Made by a program: the position numbers and the translations under genes
Shown: positions 34,301 through 52,639 of the stretch, one piece after another
Layout: every line of letters begins with the position of its first letter
Numbering within the stretch: the first letter of the stretch is position 1
Origin: an uncultured Clostridia bacterium
Lineage (GTDB): Bacteria > Bacillota > Clostridia > Christensenellales > UBA1242
Length of the DNA: 64,000 bases
NCBI GenBank assembly: GCA_944377165.1
Contig: CALWEJ010000008.1
Coordinates: forward strand, 1 to 64,000
Direction of reading: 5' to 3'
The notes under the pieces: model-generated
Seen by the model: only the letters and a program-made list of their open reading frames with translations
Databases searched by the model: none
Told to the model about the DNA's origin: nothing

Positions 34301-37300
34301 AAATACATTTACGAAAACTTAACTGAAGAGACGTCTGAAATTCTTGACATAGCGGTGGTAAGTCTAAATACTAGCACTAGCGAAGCTAATCCGACACTCG
34401 CTAAAGCAGGCGAAAAAATTAAAATCGCACGAAATCAAGTTGTTGAACTTACAGGTAGTAAAGTAAATAATTCTATAAACAATTCAATAGTCCTATCATT
34501 TAACCTATTTGATAGCACGTACGAAAAGTCATACGTTGTTGAGATTTACAACAAAAATAACGGCGAAATGACTAATGTGCAAACATTTAATTTCACTGAC
34601 GCGCAGGATACTGACCTAGACGGAATAATATCATTTAATTTAGATGATTGCTTATCTAATGCACAAGGAGAAACGTTAGATAAGAATATTTTCGTTAGGT
34701 TATATGTCCGTTCTAATGCCGTAGATTATGTATTAGACGAAGAAGTTTATATCTTTAATTCAGATTACTCTAGCGAATTAGAATATATCGTGCTAGATAG
34801 TGTAAGTAATATTTTAATTCAAAACGGAGAAATAACTTTCGATGCGGTTGAAAACGCAGTGGGCTATGATATTTATAGATATGAAGGTGCTGGTTTAATA
34901 AAGATTAACCAAAATTTAATTATTGATACGCATTATTCTCTAGCCGATTTAAGCGGAAATATGAGTATTGTTATACGTGCAATAGCGAATGAAGATATGC
35001 AATATACAAATTCATATTTAACTAATGTTGTGAAAATTAATAAATTAAATATTCAATCGCTAGCGGTAGAAAACGGAAATATTGTAATTAATTTAGATAG
35101 TGCAACTTTAGCCTTAATCTCCAATACTGGATTCGGAGTGGAAGGGGATTTATCGACATTTAACGGAGTAATAGTCAGAGTACAAAATGGTGAATCAACC
35201 TATTATTTCAGCACTACTAGCAAAGGGGTAAGTTTAACAGAAACCAAATTTATCATTGAATCTGATAGTTTGTTAACTTATGGTATAAACAATCTTCAAT
35301 TAGAAAGTTTGACAATAACTTTAGTGACAAATTATATTGAAACTGAAGATATCTATTACTTGAATTCTTCTAGTAAAGATATTTCGGTTTATGGATTATT
35401 AAAACCTACAAGTATCACGAAAATCTCCGATTTAGACAACGAAAAATTAGAGTATATAACTTGGAATAATAATCCTTATAATAATATGTATATTGGAGAT
35501 GTTAATGTAGATTTGACCGCTGGATACATTCTACGAGTAAGTGTAGGCGACATAATTTACTATTCAACAGATTCAAATTTAAAATATTTAGACGGAGATA
35601 ATTATCTAAGTTATGAACAACTAATTTCTAATACGAAAATACCAGCGCCTGTAGGATATGATATGGACGGCGATGGTAGTATAGGTGATTCAGAACGTTT
35701 TGTTGCAGGTGAATATAAATTTGCAGTTAAAGCAGTCCCTGTAAAATTAGAGAATAGTTATAATTTTGCTTCATCAGCTTTCTCAGACGAATTAATAGTG
35801 AACATTATGTCAGCTCCGTCACCTACTACTGTAAACGGTGTTATCAGTTGGAATGAAGATAATAACGCGACAAGTTATGAAATTTCAATTTTTGAAAAAA
35901 CTGCGAATGTGAATGAAGACACACCTATTGCATCATTCGTTAGCACAAGTCCTAACTTTGATTTTAGTGCTCAGACCTTTAATGATTATGCTGGAATTTA
36001 TGCAATCAAAGTTCAAGCGATAAGTACGTTGAACAATGTTTTAAATAGTCAAATTAGTGATGCAATATATGTACTGAGATTAAATCAAGCGGTATCGGTA
36101 GAAGTCGATGACGGAAATCTTATCTTAGAAGCAAATGACTATTTCTCATCGGCAGAGATTGAATTTGTAGATAAGATTAATGGAAGAAAAGAATATTTAT
36201 ACTTTGACCACGAAGATGCACTAAATGAGAATATCAACAACTTAATAGTTGGCGGGGAATCATCGTGGAGCGATTATATAGACCAAGAATCTAATTTCTT
36301 ATCAGCAACTAAATTCTTAATAAAAATTAAAGACAGCAATATCTTAAATATAACACAAGGTAGAAGTTATACAATTAATGTTAAATTATTTGGAAACAAT
36401 GATTCATCTTTTGGTATAGTAAATTCAATCGTGGCGAAAGATATTAGTACAATAAACGTTGTAAAACTTAGCCAAACAGCATCTAATGTAGAACTTATTG
36501 AAGTTAAAAAAGGTGTATTTAAATTTAATTATTTAGAGACCTATGAAAATATTAATTTCAATTATAACTTTAATAATTCTACTGACGTATCGCCATTCTT
36601 CGAGCAAACGAAAATTTATCTAATTAGTTTAAGTTCATCTCAAAGAACACACAATATTTATGCTATAGATTATAATTCATTCATTAATTTCAGCAGTTTA
36701 CTAAATGAAGAAGAATATCAAATTTTTGAAGCACAAGACAACCTAAGCGGACTTTATGCATATGTGAAATTTAATTATTCACGTGCGGACGGAGCGAGTG
36801 GTAGCTTGTATTTCAATGTGTTTGAAAATAACGAAATAAATTTGCGCGATTATGATAATCTATATTATTACGAGATAACGACAGAAGAAAAAGAAAGCGA
36901 AATAGTATATTCTTCTAGCGGTGAGCGAACAGTGATTGATGTAGCGAGCGGCGGTTCATTCGTGATTTCATTAAGATTATTAGGCGGAGATAGCATAATC
37001 GAAATGAACGGGGAAGCAGTTAGTTCGCATATTGCATACCTAAATTCTAGTGATATTGAAACAGACACATTCGTTAGATATAGTGATAACAATTTAAGCG
37101 GATACAACGGCTATGTACAATTCACAGATTTAATTCCAGAAGATAGTGACGGAGAAATCATTGATTATCCAATCTATAAGTTGACTATCACTCCACTAAA
37201 TGTGGTAGAAAGTAAAACAGTTTATATCTATTACACTAGCGAAGAAGAAGCTAGACAAGTCGTTAATAACGATAGTGCAATTTATGTTCAAGCAATGTAT

Positions 37301-45373: not shown

Positions 45374-46078
45374 ATGATAGAATTAAAAAATATTTCATAT
45401 GTTATCCGCGAAAACGGAGAAGAAAAACATATTTTAGATAATATAACATACAAATTTAAAGATAATTGTTTAACGGCTATTACAGGTCATAATGGTAGCG
45501 GTAAATCTACTTTAACAAAATTAATTATGGGAATTTATCGCCCGACAAGCGGTCAAATTTTATTAGACGGCAAAGATATGACAAATTTATCTATTGATGA
45601 GCGCGCACGTTTAGGTCTAAATTATGCTTTCCAACAACCTATAACTTTCCGCGGAATTACTATTAAAGAATTAATTGACATAGCATCTAACGAAGAAAAT
45701 TCCGTTCCAAAAGCTTGCGAATACCTATCTAAAGTAGGACTTTGTGCTCGTGAGTATATTGATAGGGAATTTGATAAAACACTTTCAGGTGGAGAACAAA
45801 AACGTATTGAACTCGCTTTAACTTTAGCAAAGAAGGGTAAAGTGACAATATTTGACGAGCCAGAAGCAGGAATTGACCTATGGAGTTTTGACCGACTTAA
45901 CGAAATTTTTTCTAAAGGGTTATGCTATATAGTCGTTAGTCATCAAGAGCGACTTTTATCAAGGGCGGACGAGATTGTAGTTATGGACAAAGGTCATATT
46001 ATCAAATCTGGTAAGCCAAAAGAAGTGTTAAAAGATTTGACTGTTGCGAAATGTAAACGAGCTGGGGGAGGTAATTAA
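45374..46078 (+). CDS. sufC: Fe-S cluster assembly ATPase SufC
   Basis: 234 residues. GHNGSGKSTL (Walker A, about 33-42), NYAFQQP (Q loop), LSGGEQKRIELALTLA (signature) and FDEPEAGIDLWSF (Walker B). SufC is a soluble ABC ATPase that drives the SufB scaffold. Its stop overlaps the ATG of sufB by one base. Confidence 0.93.
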   Translation: MIELKNISYVIRENGEEKHILDNITYKFKDNCLTAITGHNGSGKSTLTKLIMGIYRPTSGQILLDGKDMTNLSIDERARLGLNYAFQQPITFRGITIKELIDIASNEENSVPKACEYLSKVGLCAREYIDREFDKTLSGGEQKRIELALTLAKKGKVTIFDEPEAGIDLWSFDRLNEIFSKGLCYIVVSHQERLLSRADEIVVMDKGHIIKSGKPKEVLKDLTVAKCKRAGGGN

Positions 46079-46992
46079 TGGAATTAGATAAGATATCAAA
46101 AAACCTGCTTGAAAAAATCGCCAACTTGCACGAAATCCCTAATGGCGCGGTATCGCTTCGTATAAATGGCAAGGGAGAGTTTTTGCGTTCCACACCGCAT
46201 ATAGAGATAGTTCGCAAGGAAGATAAACCGGGCATAAACGTTTATGTCCATTCAACTTGCGTAAATGAAGCTTGCCATATTCCTGTAATTGTGAATGAAG
46301 ATAATTTCCACGACCTAGTATATAACGATTTCTATATTGAGCCGGGCGCCGTAGTGACAATCATTGCGGGTTGCGGAGTGCATTCAAATTCAGATAGCGG
46401 ACACGACGGCATTCATACTTTTCATATTGGCGAAAATGCTAGTGTCACCTATGTTGAGAATCATTTAGCATTGGGCAAGGGAGTAAATAAGACGCTAAAT
46501 CCTACTACAATTATTAAGTTAGAGTCTGGCGCTAGTATGACTATGAATACAACGCAAATAAGTGGTGTTAATTATTCAAACCGCATCACACGCGCTAGTT
46601 TGAAAGATAATTCAAGTTTAAATGTTGTAGAAAAGATTTTGACAGACAGATTCGATGTTGCGAAAACTAATTTTAAAGTTGACCTAATTGGTAAAAATAG
46701 CAGATGTAATATCGTATCTAGGAGTGTTGCTAAGGGTGAAAGCGAGCAAGTATTCAAATCAAATTTAGTGGGCAAGAATGAATCGTTTGGGCACGTAGAG
46801 TGCGACGGAATTTTGCTAGACAATGCGCACATAGACTCTGTACCTATGGTTAGTGCGAGAAATAATCTCGCTAGTCTTTCACACGAAGCAGCTATTGGTA
46901 AAATAGCAGGTGAGCAAATCACTAAGCTTATGACATTAGGGCTAACAGAAAAGCAAGCAGAAGATAAAATCATTGAAGGATTTTTAAAATAA
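46078..46992 (+). CDS. sufB: SufB-like Fe-S scaffold (minimal SufBC system)
   Basis: 304 residues, shorter than the ~470 of SufB, as in the minimal SmsCB/SufCB type. The C-terminal half is the SufBD core, with GHVECDGILLDNAHIDSVP, where Cys242 aligns with the conserved scaffold Cys of SufB. Several other Cys and His residues (CVNEACH, GCGVHSN) lie in the first half. No sufS, sufU or sufD is adjacent, so sulfur must come from a gene elsewhere or directly from sulfide. It lies in an operon with sufC only. Confidence 0.85.
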   Translation: MELDKISKNLLEKIANLHEIPNGAVSLRINGKGEFLRSTPHIEIVRKEDKPGINVYVHSTCVNEACHIPVIVNEDNFHDLVYNDFYIEPGAVVTIIAGCGVHSNSDSGHDGIHTFHIGENASVTYVENHLALGKGVNKTLNPTTIIKLESGASMTMNTTQISGVNYSNRITRASLKDNSSLNVVEKILTDRFDVAKTNFKVDLIGKNSRCNIVSRSVAKGESEQVFKSNLVGKNESFGHVECDGILLDNAHIDSVPMVSARNNLASLSHEAAIGKIAGEQITKLMTLGLTEKQAEDKIIEGFLK

Positions 46993-47037: not shown

Positions 47038-47346
47038 ATGATTAAAGTTAAGAATTTAGAAGAATTTAAAGAAAAGGCACAAAAACTTATTGCATATTTA
47101 GATAAAGGTGAAAATCTTTATGTTATTAAACAAAAAGAGCCAGAACTCGTTAAATGGTATTATTCATATATGCCTTTAACATACAGTCTTGAAAACGAAG
47201 CAAGAGAATTATTTCACGAAATCCATATAAAAAGACATAATATCAGTAGAGCAGAAACGGCGCTTCGCATTTCTGAAACGAGAAAGAATACAAAGGCTAA
47301 GGCAAGCAATCAAAAAGATATTGAGCAAGCAAATAATAATTTGTAA
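47038..47346 (+). CDS. Small hypothetical protein
   Basis: 102 residues, helical, lysine- and glutamate-rich, with a low-complexity tail (KAKASNQKDIEQANNN). No signal, membrane segment or known motif. The ATG sits 6 nt after the -10 box and has no ribosome binding site. Closed by the hairpin at 47379. Confidence 0.65.
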   Translation: MIKVKNLEEFKEKAQKLIAYLDKGENLYVIKQKEPELVKWYYSYMPLTYSLENEARELFHEIHIKRHNISRAETALRISETRKNTKAKASNQKDIEQANNNL

Positions 47347-47378: not shown

Positions 47379-47405
47379 AAAATATTCGCGCTTGCGAATA
47401 TTTTT
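47379..47405 (+). terminator. Terminator after the 47038 gene
   Basis: An 11-bp stem, AAAATATTCGC (47379-47389) with GCGAATATTTT (47394-47404), loop GCTT, then T residues. Confidence 0.93.
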
Positions 47406-47420
47406 ATTGCAACATATCAG

Positions 47421-47449
47421 TTGACAAAATCTTTGTTTTATGCAATAAT
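47421..47449 (+). promoter_or_regulatory. Promoter of the gatCAB leader
   Basis: TTGACA (47421-47426), 17 nt, AATAAT (47444-47449) with an upstream TG (47441-47442) forming an extended -10. The start point would be at or close to 47456, the A of the leader-peptide ATG. Confidence 0.75.
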
Positions 47450-47455
47450 AAAACT

Positions 47456-47494
47456 ATGTTGATAATTAACGATAATGACAATAATATCGATTAG
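47456..47494 (+). CDS. Asn/Asp-rich leader peptide of gatCAB
   Basis: A 12-codon frame, M-L-I-I-N-D-N-D-N-N-I-D, then TAG. Four codons are Asn (one AAC, three AAT) and three are Asp (GAT, GAC, GAT). The ATG is at the predicted transcription start with no Shine-Dalgarno site. It ends just before the competing helices of the attenuator. Ribosome stalling at these codons would occur when Asn-tRNA or Asp-tRNA is uncharged, and these are the products of the operon it precedes. Inference from position, content and structure; no translation evidence. Confidence 0.72.
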   Translation: MLIINDNDNNID

Positions 47495-47557
47495 CACAAG
47501 CTTTGTGTGTACCTTTTACCACGAATTTCAAGGTGCACACCTTGAATTTTCTTTTTT
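47495..47557 (+). promoter_or_regulatory. Attenuator of gatCAB (pause, antiterminator and terminator helices)
   Basis: Helix 1:2 is CACAA (47495-47499) with TTGTG (47503-47507). Helix 2:3, the antiterminator, is GTGTGTACCTT (47505-47515) with AAGGTGCACAC (47530-47540), 11 pairs with one G-U. Helix 3:4, the terminator, is CAAGGT (47529-47534) with ACCTTG (47539-47544), then a run of T with one C (47547-47557). Helices 2:3 and 3:4 share AAGGT, so they exclude each other. A ribosome halted on the Asn/Asp codons would cover element 1 and leave 2:3 free to form, permitting read-through into gatC. The logic is that of the trp leader. Confidence 0.75.
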
Positions 47558-47568
47558 AAGGAGATAGT

Positions 47569-47847
47569 ATGATATCAAACGAAGAATTTAAACATTTAGC
47601 AGAACTTTCTAAACTTGAATTCAGTGATGTTGAACGCGATAAATTTATTAAGGATTTTAATCATATCCTTGATTTTGCTTCACAGATTATTAATGCAAAG
47701 GTAGAAGAAAAGTCTTTTATACGTTCAATACCGCTTGAAGATTTGCGCGAAGATATTGTAAAGCAAGGACTTACACAGGCAGAAGTTGTAAGCAATGCAC
47801 CAAAGCAAAAGAAAGGGTGTTATGTTGTACCTAGAATAATGGAGTAG
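47569..47847 (+). CDS. gatC: Asp/Glu-tRNA amidotransferase subunit C
   Basis: 92 residues, standard for GatC. Contains LAELSKLEFSDVERDKF, the usual N-terminal helix, and ends in a GCYVVPRIME segment. GatC stabilises and wraps GatA-GatB. AAGGAGA lies 5 nt upstream, just after the attenuator T-run. Confidence 0.93.
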   Translation: MISNEEFKHLAELSKLEFSDVERDKFIKDFNHILDFASQIINAKVEEKSFIRSIPLEDLREDIVKQGLTQAEVVSNAPKQKKGCYVVPRIME

Positions 47848-47857
47848 TAGGAGATTT

Positions 47858-49273
47858 ATGATAGAATTAGGAGTAATAGATACTAGAGATAAAATTTTGT
47901 CTGGCGAAATTAGTAGCGAACAAATTACTCGAGAGTATATTAAACGAATAGAAAATAGTGACACTAACGCAGTTATTGAGATTTTTTCTGATGCTATTGA
48001 GCAAGCAAAAGCTATCGATATTCGAATAAAAGAAGGGTTTAAAGGTGCGCTTGCTGGAGTGCCTATAATAATAAAAGATAACATTTTAGTAAAGGGTAAG
48101 CACGCGAGCGCAGGTTCACTTATTCTTAAAGATTATATTGCGGAATACACATCTACTGTGGCACAAAAACTTATCGACGCAGGCGCTGTAATTATAGCAC
48201 GCGCAAATATGGACGAATTTGCTATGGGCGGAAGTACAGAAACAAGCTATTATGGCAAGACTCTTAATCCGCGCGATAAGACGCGCGTTCCGGGCGGTTC
48301 ATCAGGCGGAAGTGCGGCGGCAGTCGCTGAAGACTTGTGTTGCGCTGCACTTGGCACAGATACGGGGGGTTCTATCCGCCAGCCAAGCGCGTATTGTGGC
48401 TGTGTAGGAATTAAACCTACTTATGGTAGAGTTTCACGTTTCGGGGTTATTGCATTTGCTAGTTCGCTTGACCAAGTAGGACCTATCACAAAAAATGTAA
48501 AAGATAATGCGCTATTGTTGCAAGTTTTGTCCGGAGAAGATAGTAATGACGAAACGGCAGAGAAACGCGCAGTTGAAGATTATTCCAAATACTTTAATCA
48601 AGATATTCGTGGTATGAAAATCGGCGTAATTTCATACGTCGATGATATAGTAAAAGGACTTGATGTAGAGAAAAATTACAATGACTTTAAAGAATTTTTG
48701 AAAGCTAACGGTGCTGAAATAGTAAATGTCGATATAAAAAATTTAGACTTAGTTCTTCCAGTATATTATATCATTGCGCCAGCTGAAGCTACCAGCAACT
48801 TAGCTCGTTTCGACGGTGTAAAATACACTAGACGAGCAACAGATGCTAAAAATCTTGAAGAAATTTATTTAAAATCGCGCACTGAAGGATTCGGCGACGA
48901 AGTAAAACGTAGAATAATGTTAGGTAATTATGTTTTAAGTAGCGGTTATTTCGATGCTTATTATAACAAAGCGCGTTCGTTGCAAGCTAATTTAAGAGAA
49001 GAATTCTTAAAAGCGTTTAAGAGTTGCGATATCTTAATTATGCCTACAGCGAAGGGTGAAGCATATAAATTAGGCGAAAAATCAAACCCTGTAGATGCAT
49101 ATAAGGAAGATATATTCACAGTTAGCGCTAATATCGTAGGTGTCCCTGCTATGTCAATTCCTTTTGGTGTAGGTAAGAATGGGCTTCCTATAGGTATGCA
49201 AATTATAGCACCTCATTTTGAAGAAGGAAGATTATATAGACTCGCAGACTTTGTTGAAAGGAGGGCTAAATAA
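47858..49273 (+). CDS. gatA: Asp/Glu-tRNA amidotransferase subunit A
   Basis: 471 residues, amidase-signature family. Catalytic Lys in IIIKDNIL, cis-Ser in the GGSSGGSAAAVA loop and the nucleophile Ser in GTDTGGSIRQPS. GatA hydrolyses glutamine and passes ammonia to GatB. GTAGGAGA precedes the ATG, 10 nt after gatC. The stop overlaps gatB by one base. Confidence 0.97.
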   Translation: MIELGVIDTRDKILSGEISSEQITREYIKRIENSDTNAVIEIFSDAIEQAKAIDIRIKEGFKGALAGVPIIIKDNILVKGKHASAGSLILKDYIAEYTSTVAQKLIDAGAVIIARANMDEFAMGGSTETSYYGKTLNPRDKTRVPGGSSGGSAAAVAEDLCCAALGTDTGGSIRQPSAYCGCVGIKPTYGRVSRFGVIAFASSLDQVGPITKNVKDNALLLQVLSGEDSNDETAEKRAVEDYSKYFNQDIRGMKIGVISYVDDIVKGLDVEKNYNDFKEFLKANGAEIVNVDIKNLDLVLPVYYIIAPAEATSNLARFDGVKYTRRATDAKNLEEIYLKSRTEGFGDEVKRRIMLGNYVLSSGYFDAYYNKARSLQANLREEFLKAFKSCDILIMPTAKGEAYKLGEKSNPVDAYKEDIFTVSANIVGVPAMSIPFGVGKNGLPIGMQIIAPHFEEGRLYRLADFVERRAK

Positions 49274-50700
49274 TGGAATACGATGTAGTTATAGGGTTAG
49301 AAGTACACGCAGAACTAAAAACTAATAGTAAATGCTTCTGCTCGTGCAAAAATGAAGCAGGTGATGAACCTAACACAAATTGTTGTCCGGTATGTATAGG
49401 GTTGCCGGGCGCATTGCCTATACTTAATAAATTTGCAGTAGAGCAAACTATTCGAGCAGGATTAGCTTTAGGCTTTGAAATTAACCGAACAGCAGTCTTT
49501 GAAAGAAAAAATTATTTCTATCCAGATTTGGCTAAGGCTTATCAAATATCACAACTTGTTAAACCTATTTGCATAAACGGAAGCTTAAGAATAGGCAATA
49601 AAGATATTCCAATAAACCGAATTCATTTGGAAGAAGATGCAGGTAAGTTAGTCCACGGTGCGGACGGTTCGACGCTTGTAGATTATAACCGCGGAGGGGT
49701 TCCTCTTATAGAATTAGTCACAGACGCGTTAAAAGAACCACATATTGAAAGCGCGGACGAAGCTATCGAATTTTTGGAAAAATTGCGACAAATATATATC
49801 TATGCAGGTGTTGCAGATTGCTTAATCGAAAAAGGACAAATGCGTGCAGACGTCAATGTTTCGCTTAAACCTAAAGGCAGTGATAAATACGGTACTAAGG
49901 TTGAAATGAAAAACATTATGGGATTTAAGTCCGTATATCGTGCTATTCAATATGAAATTGAACGTCAACGTGATATTTTGGACGACGGCGGTGTAATAGA
50001 GCAAGAAACAAGGAAATGGGACGACGATAAGGGCATTAATTTTACTTTAAGGACTAAAGAAAATAGTCAAGATTATAGATACTTCCCAGACCCAGACCTT
50101 TTAGCTGTAAAAATAGATGATGCTAAAATCGATGAGATAAAGAGAACAATGCCAATGCTCCCTAATGAGTTAAAAGAAAAGTATATGAACGAATATTCGT
50201 TAAGTGAATATGATGCGGACGTATTACTTCAGTTTAAACACGTTAGCGATTTCTTTAATCAATGCGTAGCCGACTATAATCAACCTAAAACCGTTTGCAA
50301 CTGGATTACTACTGAGATAATGGCGCGAATTAAAACCGAGTCAGGAGCAGGACCTATATTAATATCTAAAGATAATTTAGTTTGGCTTATGAAAAATGTT
50401 GATAACAAAAAAATCAACCGTCTTAGTGCAAAAGATGTGTTATCAAAAGTTTGGGGCACAGACTTGAGCGCGGAGAACGAAGCCAAAAGATTAAATCTTA
50501 TTATAGATATTGATACCGGAGCACTTGACGAGATAATCAAGAAAATCGTTGAACAAAATTCTAATGTCGTAGAACAATACAAAACAGCTAACGATCCTAA
50601 GATTTTGAATTATCTCGTAGGTCAAGTGATGAAAGAAACGCGAGGCAAAGCAAATGCTGGTGACGTTATGGCTAAGATAAAAGAACTTGCAAATTCTTAA
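49273..50700 (+). CDS. gatB: Asp/Glu-tRNA amidotransferase subunit B
   Basis: 475 residues. The GatB catalytic domain begins VVIGLEVHAELKT and contains CSCKNEAGDEPNTNCCPVC, the zinc-ligand cysteines, and NRIHLEEDAGK. The C-terminal GatB/YqeY helical domain binds tRNA (from about residue 330). It phosphorylates and amidates the Asp or Glu on the mischarged tRNA. Coupled to gatA. Confidence 0.97.
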   Translation: MEYDVVIGLEVHAELKTNSKCFCSCKNEAGDEPNTNCCPVCIGLPGALPILNKFAVEQTIRAGLALGFEINRTAVFERKNYFYPDLAKAYQISQLVKPICINGSLRIGNKDIPINRIHLEEDAGKLVHGADGSTLVDYNRGGVPLIELVTDALKEPHIESADEAIEFLEKLRQIYIYAGVADCLIEKGQMRADVNVSLKPKGSDKYGTKVEMKNIMGFKSVYRAIQYEIERQRDILDDGGVIEQETRKWDDDKGINFTLRTKENSQDYRYFPDPDLLAVKIDDAKIDEIKRTMPMLPNELKEKYMNEYSLSEYDADVLLQFKHVSDFFNQCVADYNQPKTVCNWITTEIMARIKTESGAGPILISKDNLVWLMKNVDNKKINRLSAKDVLSKVWGTDLSAENEAKRLNLIIDIDTGALDEIIKKIVEQNSNVVEQYKTANDPKILNYLVGQVMKETRGKANAGDVMAKIKELANS

Positions 50701-50908: not shown

Positions 50909-52639
50909 ATGTATAGAACAATGACTTGTGGTCAGGTCGATGAAAGTATGGTTGGCAAGACTATTGAACTTGCTGGTTGGGTTAATACTATGCGCGACCA
51001 CGGCGGTATAGTATTTATAGATTTGCGCGATAAATATGGATTAGTGCAATTAACTACGCACGATGATAGTCTGCTTACTAGTCTTACTCGCGAAAGTGTG
51101 ATTTCAATTAAGGGTAAAGTTGTTATGCGTGATGAATATAACTTTAATCCTAAGATGAGGTCGGGTAAAATTGAAGTTGAGATTGAAGAGCTTAAAGTTT
51201 TATCTAAAGCTCGCAATATTTTACCTTTCGAAGTAGATGAAAGTATGAAAGTTGGCGAAGAATTGCGCTTGAAGTATAGATACCTTGATTTAAGAAATGA
51301 AAAAATGCAAGAAATCTTAAAATTGCGCGCAGATATGTCATACGAAGTTCGTACTTGTATGCGTGAATTAGGTTTTACTGAAGTCAATACTCCAATCTTG
51401 ACTGTTCCTAGCCCAGAAGGTGCGCGTGACTATCTAGTTCCAAGTCGTGTGCATAAAGGAAAATTTTATGCACTTCCTCAAGCCCCTCAACAGTTCAAAC
51501 AACTCTTAATGTGCAGTGGAGTTGATAAATATTTCCAGATAGCGCCTTGCTTTAGAGATGAAGACCCACGTGCAGACCGTCTTACTGGCGACTTTTATCA
51601 AATTGACTGCGAAATGAGTTTCGCGACACAAGAAGACGTGCATAAAGTAGTTGAAACTTTAATCGATAGAATATTTTCGAAATTCAGTAAATTCCCATTC
51701 AATAAAGGTCCTTTTAAATGTATTCCATTTAAAGAAGCCATGATTAAATACGGCACTGATAAGCCTGATTTAAGAAACCCTATTGTTATGACTGATTTGA
51801 ATGACGTATTTAAGGATACAACATTCGCTGGATTTAAAGACAAGACTATTGAAGGTTTTTCGGTAACGGCTAGCGGTCAGCCTAGAAGCTTCTTCGATAA
51901 ATTGCAGTCGTATTTAATAGAGCAGGGAGCAGAAGGTTTAGCTTGGGTGCGCGTTCAAGAGGACGGCACACTTAAAGGTCCAATCGTGAAATTTATTACA
52001 GAACAAGAATGTAAAGACCTTATCGCAAAAACTGGCGCGAAAATCGGCGATGATATATTCGTAATTGCTGATGCTAACAAGAAAAAATGCTATAAACTTG
52101 CAGGATTATTACGTACACAAGTCGGTGAAAAATTAAATCTTATTGATACATCAAGAATTGAATTTTGTTGGATAGTTGATTTCCCAATGTTTGAACTCAG
52201 CGACGAAGGCAAGATAGAATTCTGTCATAATCCTTTCAATATGCCTAAGGGCGGTATGGAAGCTTTAAATAGGATGAATCCGCTAGATGTAGTTGCATAT
52301 CAATATGACCTTGTTGCTAACGGATATGAATGCGCTTCTGGTGCGGTTCGAAATACTGATTCTGATACTATGGTGAAATTGTTTGAAATAGTTGGCTATG
52401 GTAAGGAAGAGGTTGAGAAACGTTTTGGTGCGCTACACACAGCATTTACTTATGGTGCTCCTCCACACGCAGGTGTAGCTCCTGGATTTGAAAGATTAAT
52501 GATGCTAATGTTAGGAATAAACAATATTCGTGACGTTGTTCCGTTCCCAATGAACAGCAAAGCACAAGATTTATTAATGTGTGGACCAATAGAAGTTGAC
52601 GAAACTCAATTACGTGAAGTTCACATTAAATTAAGATAA
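50909..52639 (+). CDS. aspS: Aspartyl-tRNA synthetase, probably non-discriminating
   Basis: 576 residues, the bacterial AspRS with an N-terminal anticodon-binding OB domain (1-105), the class II core with FRDEDPRADR, and a GAD insertion. The N-terminus has MRDHGGIVFIDLRD, with His31. In Pseudomonas AspRS the equivalent His31 supports recognition of tRNA-Asn, while discriminating enzymes have Leu. It is therefore probably able to make Asp-tRNA-Asn, the substrate of GatCAB just upstream. TTAGGAGAA precedes the ATG. Ends at a strong terminator. Confidence 0.95.
   Translation: MYRTMTCGQVDESMVGKTIELAGWVNTMRDHGGIVFIDLRDKYGLVQLTTHDDSLLTSLTRESVISIKGKVVMRDEYNFNPKMRSGKIEVEIEELKVLSKARNILPFEVDESMKVGEELRLKYRYLDLRNEKMQEILKLRADMSYEVRTCMRELGFTEVNTPILTVPSPEGARDYLVPSRVHKGKFYALPQAPQQFKQLLMCSGVDKYFQIAPCFRDEDPRADRLTGDFYQIDCEMSFATQEDVHKVVETLIDRIFSKFSKFPFNKGPFKCIPFKEAMIKYGTDKPDLRNPIVMTDLNDVFKDTTFAGFKDKTIEGFSVTASGQPRSFFDKLQSYLIEQGAEGLAWVRVQEDGTLKGPIVKFITEQECKDLIAKTGAKIGDDIFVIADANKKKCYKLAGLLRTQVGEKLNLIDTSRIEFCWIVDFPMFELSDEGKIEFCHNPFNMPKGGMEALNRMNPLDVVAYQYDLVANGYECASGAVRNTDSDTMVKLFEIVGYGKEEVEKRFGALHTAFTYGAPPHAGVAPGFERLMMLMLGINNIRDVVPFPMNSKAQDLLMCGPIEVDETQLREVHIKLR

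Follow-up and report, generated by a model that had tools for sequence, protein, structure and literature searches.

In an uncultured Clostridia bacterium (Christensenellales; UBA1242), a short open reading frame (ORF) crowded with asparagine and aspartate codons lies between a putative promoter and gatC, which raises the question of whether the supply of a charged tRNA controls the genes that make it. The window analysed here is a stretch of 64,000 nucleotides, positions 1-64,000 of the forward strand of contig CALWEJ010000008.1 (assembly GCA_944377165.1), from a genome of ~1.02 Mb that is 96% complete. The short ORF is followed by four genes:

47569 to 47847, plus strand: gatC, with a Shine-Dalgarno sequence GGAG at 47560-47563 (sequence, ORF list and alignment)
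47858 to 49273, plus strand: gatA (TIGR00132, 570 bits, over cut-off)
49273 to 50700, plus strand: gatB (NF004012/TIGR00133, over cut-off)
50909 to 52639, plus strand: aspS, a bacterial-type AspRS (TIGR00459/NF001750, over cut-off)

The indirect route to Asn-tRNA has two enzymes, AspRS and GatCAB. The gap of 208 bp between gatB and aspS is A+T-rich and has no evident terminator, and gatCAB and aspS are adjacent in two other genomes (G007 and G231) as well; as far as gene arrangement can tell, aspS likely shares an operon with gatCAB. No AsnRS exceeded the family cut-off in the window's genome (the best match, 1.2e-29, is at the level of other class II synthetases), a family-wide search found no asnA in it, and GlnRS is clearly present. 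Given these three observations, and with asnB outside the search, GatCAB should serve Asn-tRNA alone in this genome, which meets the criterion for a tRNA-dependent asparagine pathway, namely GatCAB and AspRS without AsnRS. The window's AspRS carries the motif RDHGG, where an AspRS of the AsnRS-bearing genome G017 has RKLGG. The His/Leu position of this motif separates non-discriminating from discriminating enzymes, and on the motif alone the window's AspRS is probably non-discriminating.

The region upstream of gatC contains the following features:

47381 to 47405, plus strand: hairpin AATATTCGC-gctt-GCGAATATT with a short T run (read from the sequence), the probable terminator of an upstream ORF at 47038-47346
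47421 to 47426, plus strand: -35 box TTGACA (sequence; consensus scoring across homologues)
47441 to 47449, plus strand: extended -10 box TGcAATAAT after a 17-nt spacer (sequence; consensus scoring across homologues)
47456 to 47494, plus strand: leader ORF of 12 codons from ATG to TAG, MLIINDNDNNID-stop (sequence; an Asn-rich ORF is kept in 28 gatC loci)
47495 to 47507, plus strand: segment 1:2 hairpin CACAA-gct-TTGTG, with segment 1 at 47495-47499 and TTGTG at 47503-47507 (sequence)
47505 to 47515, plus strand: segment 2, GTGTGTACCTT, the antiterminator 5' arm (fold; covariation)
47512 to 47518, plus strand: CCTTTTA, the window's form of a conserved C(C/T)TTTTG block (alignment)
47530 to 47540, plus strand: segment 3, AAGGTGCACAC, the antiterminator 3' arm, overlapping the terminator 5' arm (fold; covariation)
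47527 to 47557, plus strand: intrinsic terminator, an 8-bp stem of TTCAAGGT (47527-47534) and ACCTTGAA (47539-47546) with a GCAC loop (sequence; fold)

The earlier note had described a promoter, a 12-codon frame with four Asn and three Asp codons, competing helices and gatC, and all of these lie where it placed them. The codons read ATG TTG ATA ATT AAC GAT AAT GAC AAT AAT ATC GAT TAG, with the Asp (GAY) codons at 47471, 47477 and 47489; the stop is followed by CACAAgctTTGTG and then by the antiterminator and the terminator. The antiterminator proposed at 47505-47515/47530-47540 indeed comprises 11 bp, one of them G-U, and folds strongly relative to shuffles (z -4.65). The terminator (z -4.89) is at the proposed position, but its stem is 8 bp long and not 6, and it ends in an 11-base U-rich tract, TTTTCTTTTTT, at 47547-47557. 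Since segment 3 overlaps the terminator 5' arm, the two structures are mutually exclusive, and because the antiterminator is the more stable at equilibrium (-14.6 versus -10.3), termination needs a kinetic order and a ribosome, as in classical attenuators. The 1:2 hairpin is read, by inference, as an anti-antiterminator or pause hairpin, and the CTTTTG-like block after it as a possible site at which RNA polymerase pauses and lets the ribosome catch up.

We interpret the leader as a ribosome-mediated transcription attenuator of gatCAB, and probably of aspS as well, that senses how much Asn-tRNA(Asn) is available, a reading to which we give a probability of about 0.88 in the absence of expression data. 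In this scheme transcription would begin at about the leader ATG (predicted at about 47456 from the inferred promoter). With ample Asn-tRNA, a translating ribosome would move past the Asn codons as far as the stop codon (47492), cover segment 1 and the start of segment 2, and depart; segment 2 would then be unable to hold segment 3, the 3:4 terminator would form and transcription would end before gatC. With Asn-tRNA scarce, the ribosome would stall on the later Asn codons (47480-47485) and cover segment 1 only, so that segment 2 could pair with segment 3 and block the terminator; polymerase would enter gatCAB-aspS, and Asn-tRNA would be restored. It is by inference that the ORF is translated, that ribosomes stall at specific codons, that polymerase pauses at the CUUUUG-like block, and that transcription either terminates or reads through. 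The leader stop codon abuts segment 1 in the window, elsewhere segment 1 lies within a few codons of the Asn run, and in the leaders scored the last Asn codon and the end of the CTTTTG block are usually 22-34 nt apart; on paper, this spacing of ribosome and segments is classical attenuator geometry.

A simpler account would have a constitutive terminator preceded by a chance A-rich frame, with gatCAB expressed by a weak read-through promoter; the genome is A+T-rich, and AAY codons easily arise by chance in such DNA. However, the leader ORF is the only short ATG-initiated ORF with at least six Asn or Asp codons in nine on either strand of the 64-kb window; simulated sequence contained 0.1 such ORFs per strand, and never one that had a terminator 120 nt away or less. 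A search of the family's genomes with a GatC alignment identified gatC in 131 of 309, and at 28 of the 130 gatC loci whose upstream regions we examined there was an Asn-rich leader ORF (at least four Asn in nine codons), most of them also with a terminator and an antiterminator. Dinucleotide shuffles of the same regions yielded 3.9 such ORFs; at a threshold of at least five Asn we observed 25 versus 0.25 in shuffles, and at least six, 20 versus 0. Thus relatives keep the frame and its Asn bias, as the earlier note had required. Examples of the peptides are MLILNNNDNNLD, MKIKVNDNNNI, MIIKANNNDNNNN, MIITIINNNNNNNLNHI, MVFNFNNNNNNFNCHIAL and MTNNNNNNNNNLNHTSM. After the ORF, three parts follow in order at most of these loci: an element of the CACA type, a segment with CCTTTTG or CTTTTG at its end, and a terminator that has its complement to this segment in the 5' half or in the loop. 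(The 1:2 hairpin, judged by eye, is clear only in the window's genus, where it comprises 5 bp and changes on both sides, as in the CACTA/TAGTG of G007; elsewhere it is of 3-4 bp or unclear.) Together with the recurrence of the element before other asparagine genes and the covariation seen in a helix for which a plain terminator would have no use, both described below, these controls make the chance-frame account scarcely credible.

The element is patchily distributed. About 100 of the 130 family gatC loci lack it, many of them in other contexts, so it is not required for gatCAB generally. A covariance-model search of the order found it in the window's family alone, under strict filters that can lose diverged copies. 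A query with the single GatC protein brought up one close relative that bears a name, a contig labelled 'uncultured Christensenella sp.' with 80% GatC identity. In the window's own genome, the only significant match to the covariance model was the window locus itself (E 2.7e-6). The region as a sequence has a second match in this genome, limited to the bases surrounding the ribosome-binding site of gatC, and we did not count it as another attenuator.

Compensatory changes among relatives, a further expectation of the earlier note, were found in the 2:3 helix. With segment anchors set by eye, segments 2 and 3 of the gatC leaders paired at a mean of -13.7 kcal/mol within species versus -8.6 across species (permutation p 5e-5), a difference that holds in 18 non-redundant sequences; in asnA leaders the values were -10.3 versus -8.8 (p 3e-4). 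Because the sequences are related to one another, the p values should be taken as guides. From nothing but the alignment, RNAalifold proposed the antiterminator helix, with double changes at 4 of 6 pairs and 11 of them at one pair. In the named 10-pair antiterminator helix, 85% of cells pair, and there are 20 double-change cells versus 7.4 in shuffled data (0/500), a signal that is lost when the helix is slid by 1-3 columns. The covariation is demonstrated for the 2:3 helix; the terminator is present and was left out of the count. Accordingly, two criteria for an attenuator are met: an ORF rich in codons for the product amino acid, and an exclusive antiterminator and terminator with 2:3 covariation.

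The earlier note had suggested that the leader responds to Asn- and Asp-tRNA, and a working leader peptide that senses Asp-tRNA(Asp), or Asp and Asn equally, would suit the three GAY codons, the aspS gene downstream and a non-discriminating AspRS, which would supply both tRNAs. The window's peptide is also the least Asn-pure of the leaders, which counts against our reading. In homologues, however, the run is Asn: among the gatC leaders scored, those of the window's close clade have Asp once or twice, and the others have none, except for one G141 codon beyond the run. That the leader peptides are nearly all Asn, with Asp a local variant, argues for Asn-tRNA rather than Asp-tRNA as the signal, and the suggestion should be narrowed to Asn-tRNA, since Asp codons are mainly confined to the close clade. 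Over all leaders the AA-codons are AAT 245, AAC 106, AAA 36 and AAG 7; T and C interchange at the third position while Asn is mostly preserved, which fits a reading frame under selection for Asn and not an A-rich RNA. The element also precedes asnA, whose enzyme makes Asn from Asp, and we consider sensing of Asp unlikely.

Indeed, pattern search combined with a covariance model led from gatCAB to other loci of asparagine metabolism (the pattern AAY4...CYTTTTG is noisy, with many chance matches according to a reversed control). The element occurs before asnA in G008, G078, G206 and G023, and before AspRS genes in G209, G211, G088 and G024, with gatC next in G209 and G088. A family search found asnA in 33 genomes, and about 18 of the 30 asnA loci examined have a clear Asn leader, for example MFRVINNNNNNNLNAFNMGFIFVVEKI; over all the searches, the element precedes asnA at about 20 loci. 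Because asnA, gatCAB and AspRS genes have nothing obvious in common beyond the formation of asparagine or Asn-tRNA, the element marks an asparagine regulon, which identifies the signal.

Relatives' asnA and aspS loci (L185-L190, L195-L203, L205-L207, L209, L213, L215, L216, L240 and L243) contain a second micro-ORF with its own Shine-Dalgarno sequence between the terminator of the Asn attenuator and the gene; its products include MKKTNAVAGE..., MRKSNAVAGEEYDK and MKIINAVAGEYVIFIIN. It is present at 16 of the 21 asnA leader loci scored and at none of 28 gatC leaders. Its core is AAYGCC-N6-GGC, which could reflect either a motif in the peptide or a hairpin of GCC with GGC, and several copies run on into further Asn codons.

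A T-box riboswitch that senses uncharged tRNA-Asn directly would be another means to the same end. T-boxes are present in the genus, and in C. acetobutylicum one on the transamidation operon controls the same pathway (Saad et al. 2012, 2013, as cited in PMC4206432 and PMC4052509). The earlier note stated that such genes are usually under T-boxes in Firmicutes; that operon is a known case, whereas a survey found no T-box upstream of amidotransferase genes (PMC2494555), and the T-boxes of the genus are elsewhere. No Rfam family matched the window over its gathering score, and at related loci relaxation to E 1 gave nothing but an unrelated sub-threshold sRNA match. A search of the window's genome with RF00230 returned C1:119181, C2:138118 and C8:422-621 only, leaving 47456-47571 unmatched. 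In addition, the terminator ends about 102 nt after the start, which leaves little room for a stem I and a T-box antiterminator, and T-box sequence was not seen at the locus. We therefore regard a T-box here as highly improbable and retain the Asn-reading leader peptide.

In the window's genome there are T-boxes before genes that read, by eye, as thrS and glyS. In congeners with AsnRS, T-box matches have the same orientation as asnS and lie 1.3-2 kb upstream of it (for example G001:C21, G018:C18, G021:C4 and G031:C1; specifiers not read), and the next gene is AspRS-like in G001 and G018. Most species of the genus without AsnRS have a leader-controlled gatCAB, and where AsnRS is present a T-box tends to lie upstream of the asnS cluster. 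Congeners G002, G007, G010, G011, G012 and G029 have gatCAB and the element without AsnRS (the copy in G011 is truncated at the end of a contig); AsnRS and the element occur together in G006, and G001 has AsnRS without the element. From this distribution, the sensor seems to change together with the charging pathway inside one genus.

The covariance-model search also reached MLNTIIITNIIISI before ileS in G019 and G026, and most congeners inspected (loci L252-L280) have a leaderless Ile-rich leader ORF and a terminator before ileS, a gene that in Firmicutes is typically controlled by a T-box (PMC2494555). The window's genome has the leaderless ileS leader MNMKHIIIINGEIIASKF on contig C9, at about 36034-36071 on the minus strand (L256/L322). 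T-boxes at thrS- and glyS-like genes and an Ile leader at ileS mean that two kinds of sensor coexist. The leader ORF before gatC might instead be a general sensor of translation stress, responding to any ribosome stalled, for example, by antibiotics or a nascent peptide, without sensing an amino acid; such leader ORFs exist, and the ileS and Asn leaders share a layout. Yet the codons track the downstream product, with Asn before gatCAB, asnA and aspS and Ile before ileS, and the flanking peptide sequence is little conserved, which renders a stress sensor very unlikely. Amino-acid sensing by leader peptides being preferred, our results raise a broader proposition, on which the evidence is evenly balanced: that at several charging genes (gatCAB, asnA and aspS for Asn; ileS for Ile) the family relies on ribosome-read leaders, often leaderless, instead of T-boxes, with the second micro-ORF (M..xNAVAGE) added in the asnA branch.

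In the window the -10 box ends only 6 nt before the leader ATG and there is no Shine-Dalgarno sequence, from which the leader ORF is predicted to be leaderless, with its ATG at or near +1. Nine leaders (G000, G012, G010, G002, G007, G070, G076, G077 and G208) lack a Shine-Dalgarno sequence and have a near-consensus promoter in which 6-7 nt separate the end of the -10 box from the ATG; most others have a Shine-Dalgarno sequence and 15-28 nt between -10 and ATG. The pattern TTGAC-N17-19-TANNNT-N5-7-ATG occurs at 45 sites in the window's genome versus 9 in a reversed control, about five-fold more, with many sites before real genes, so leaderless transcripts look common there. Translation of leaderless ORFs may be inefficient, which is a point against the attenuator reading; leaderless attenuator ORFs are nevertheless known, in S. 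meliloti rnTrpL (PMC7298713) and C. glutamicum ilvBNC (PMC11857589). The window's transcript resembles these two in its predicted start at the leader ATG and differs in that they serve Trp or branched-chain biosynthesis in Proteobacteria or Actinobacteria. Our analysis thereby points to leaderless initiation as a possible basis of attenuation in Clostridia.

The trp/his-type attenuators of Proteobacteria and that of E. coli pheST combine a leader ORF containing codons for the product with 1:2, 2:3 and 3:4 helices and a U-tract terminator. The window's leader has counterparts of these, with a 1:2 hairpin that is clear in its genus alone, but its codon is Asn, its targets are a tRNA-dependent amidotransferase, AsnA and AspRS, its host belongs to the Clostridia and its ORF is predicted to be leaderless. 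His leader peptides in Firmicutes (PMC2965389, PMC9413887) and a branched-chain leader peptide in Listeria (PMC5864092) are known, and the phylum thus already has examples of the mechanism; as in those cases a leader peptide would take the place of a T-box, although the amino acid and the genes are others. The T-box operon of C. acetobutylicum concerns the same pathway and a related signal, Asn-tRNA status; there the RNA binds tRNA directly, whereas in the window a translating ribosome would read codons, and one pathway would have different sensors in C. acetobutylicum and in the window's lineage. A literature search, which most subscription papers lay outside, turned up neither an asparagine leader peptide nor an attenuator on gatCAB, in agreement with the earlier note. 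If our reading is true, then as far as the papers searched go, no leader-peptide attenuator had been described for asparagine or for an amidotransferase that forms a charged tRNA, and this would be the first for both. As a kind of control, attenuation by leader peptides is known, and its Asn/gatCAB case is well supported by comparison and without experimental support.

Three further observations concern other parts of the same genome. Upstream of its ileS leader lies a further leaderless short ORF, MSIFQFILLVVMAAWAFLPIKF, and L254 and L255 contain similar sequence. The window begins with 4.1 copies of a 101-bp tandem repeat (positions 1-415, 94% match), adjoining the T-box-like match at 422-621, which is on the minus strand, scores 46 bits, below the gathering score, and reads towards the contig end. 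Finally, adjacent genes at 45374-46992 encode a SufC/ABC-type ATPase and a 304-aa SufB/SufD-like protein with a weak match to the model for SmsB of the SUF-like minimal system, and are possibly a minimal Fe-S assembly pair.
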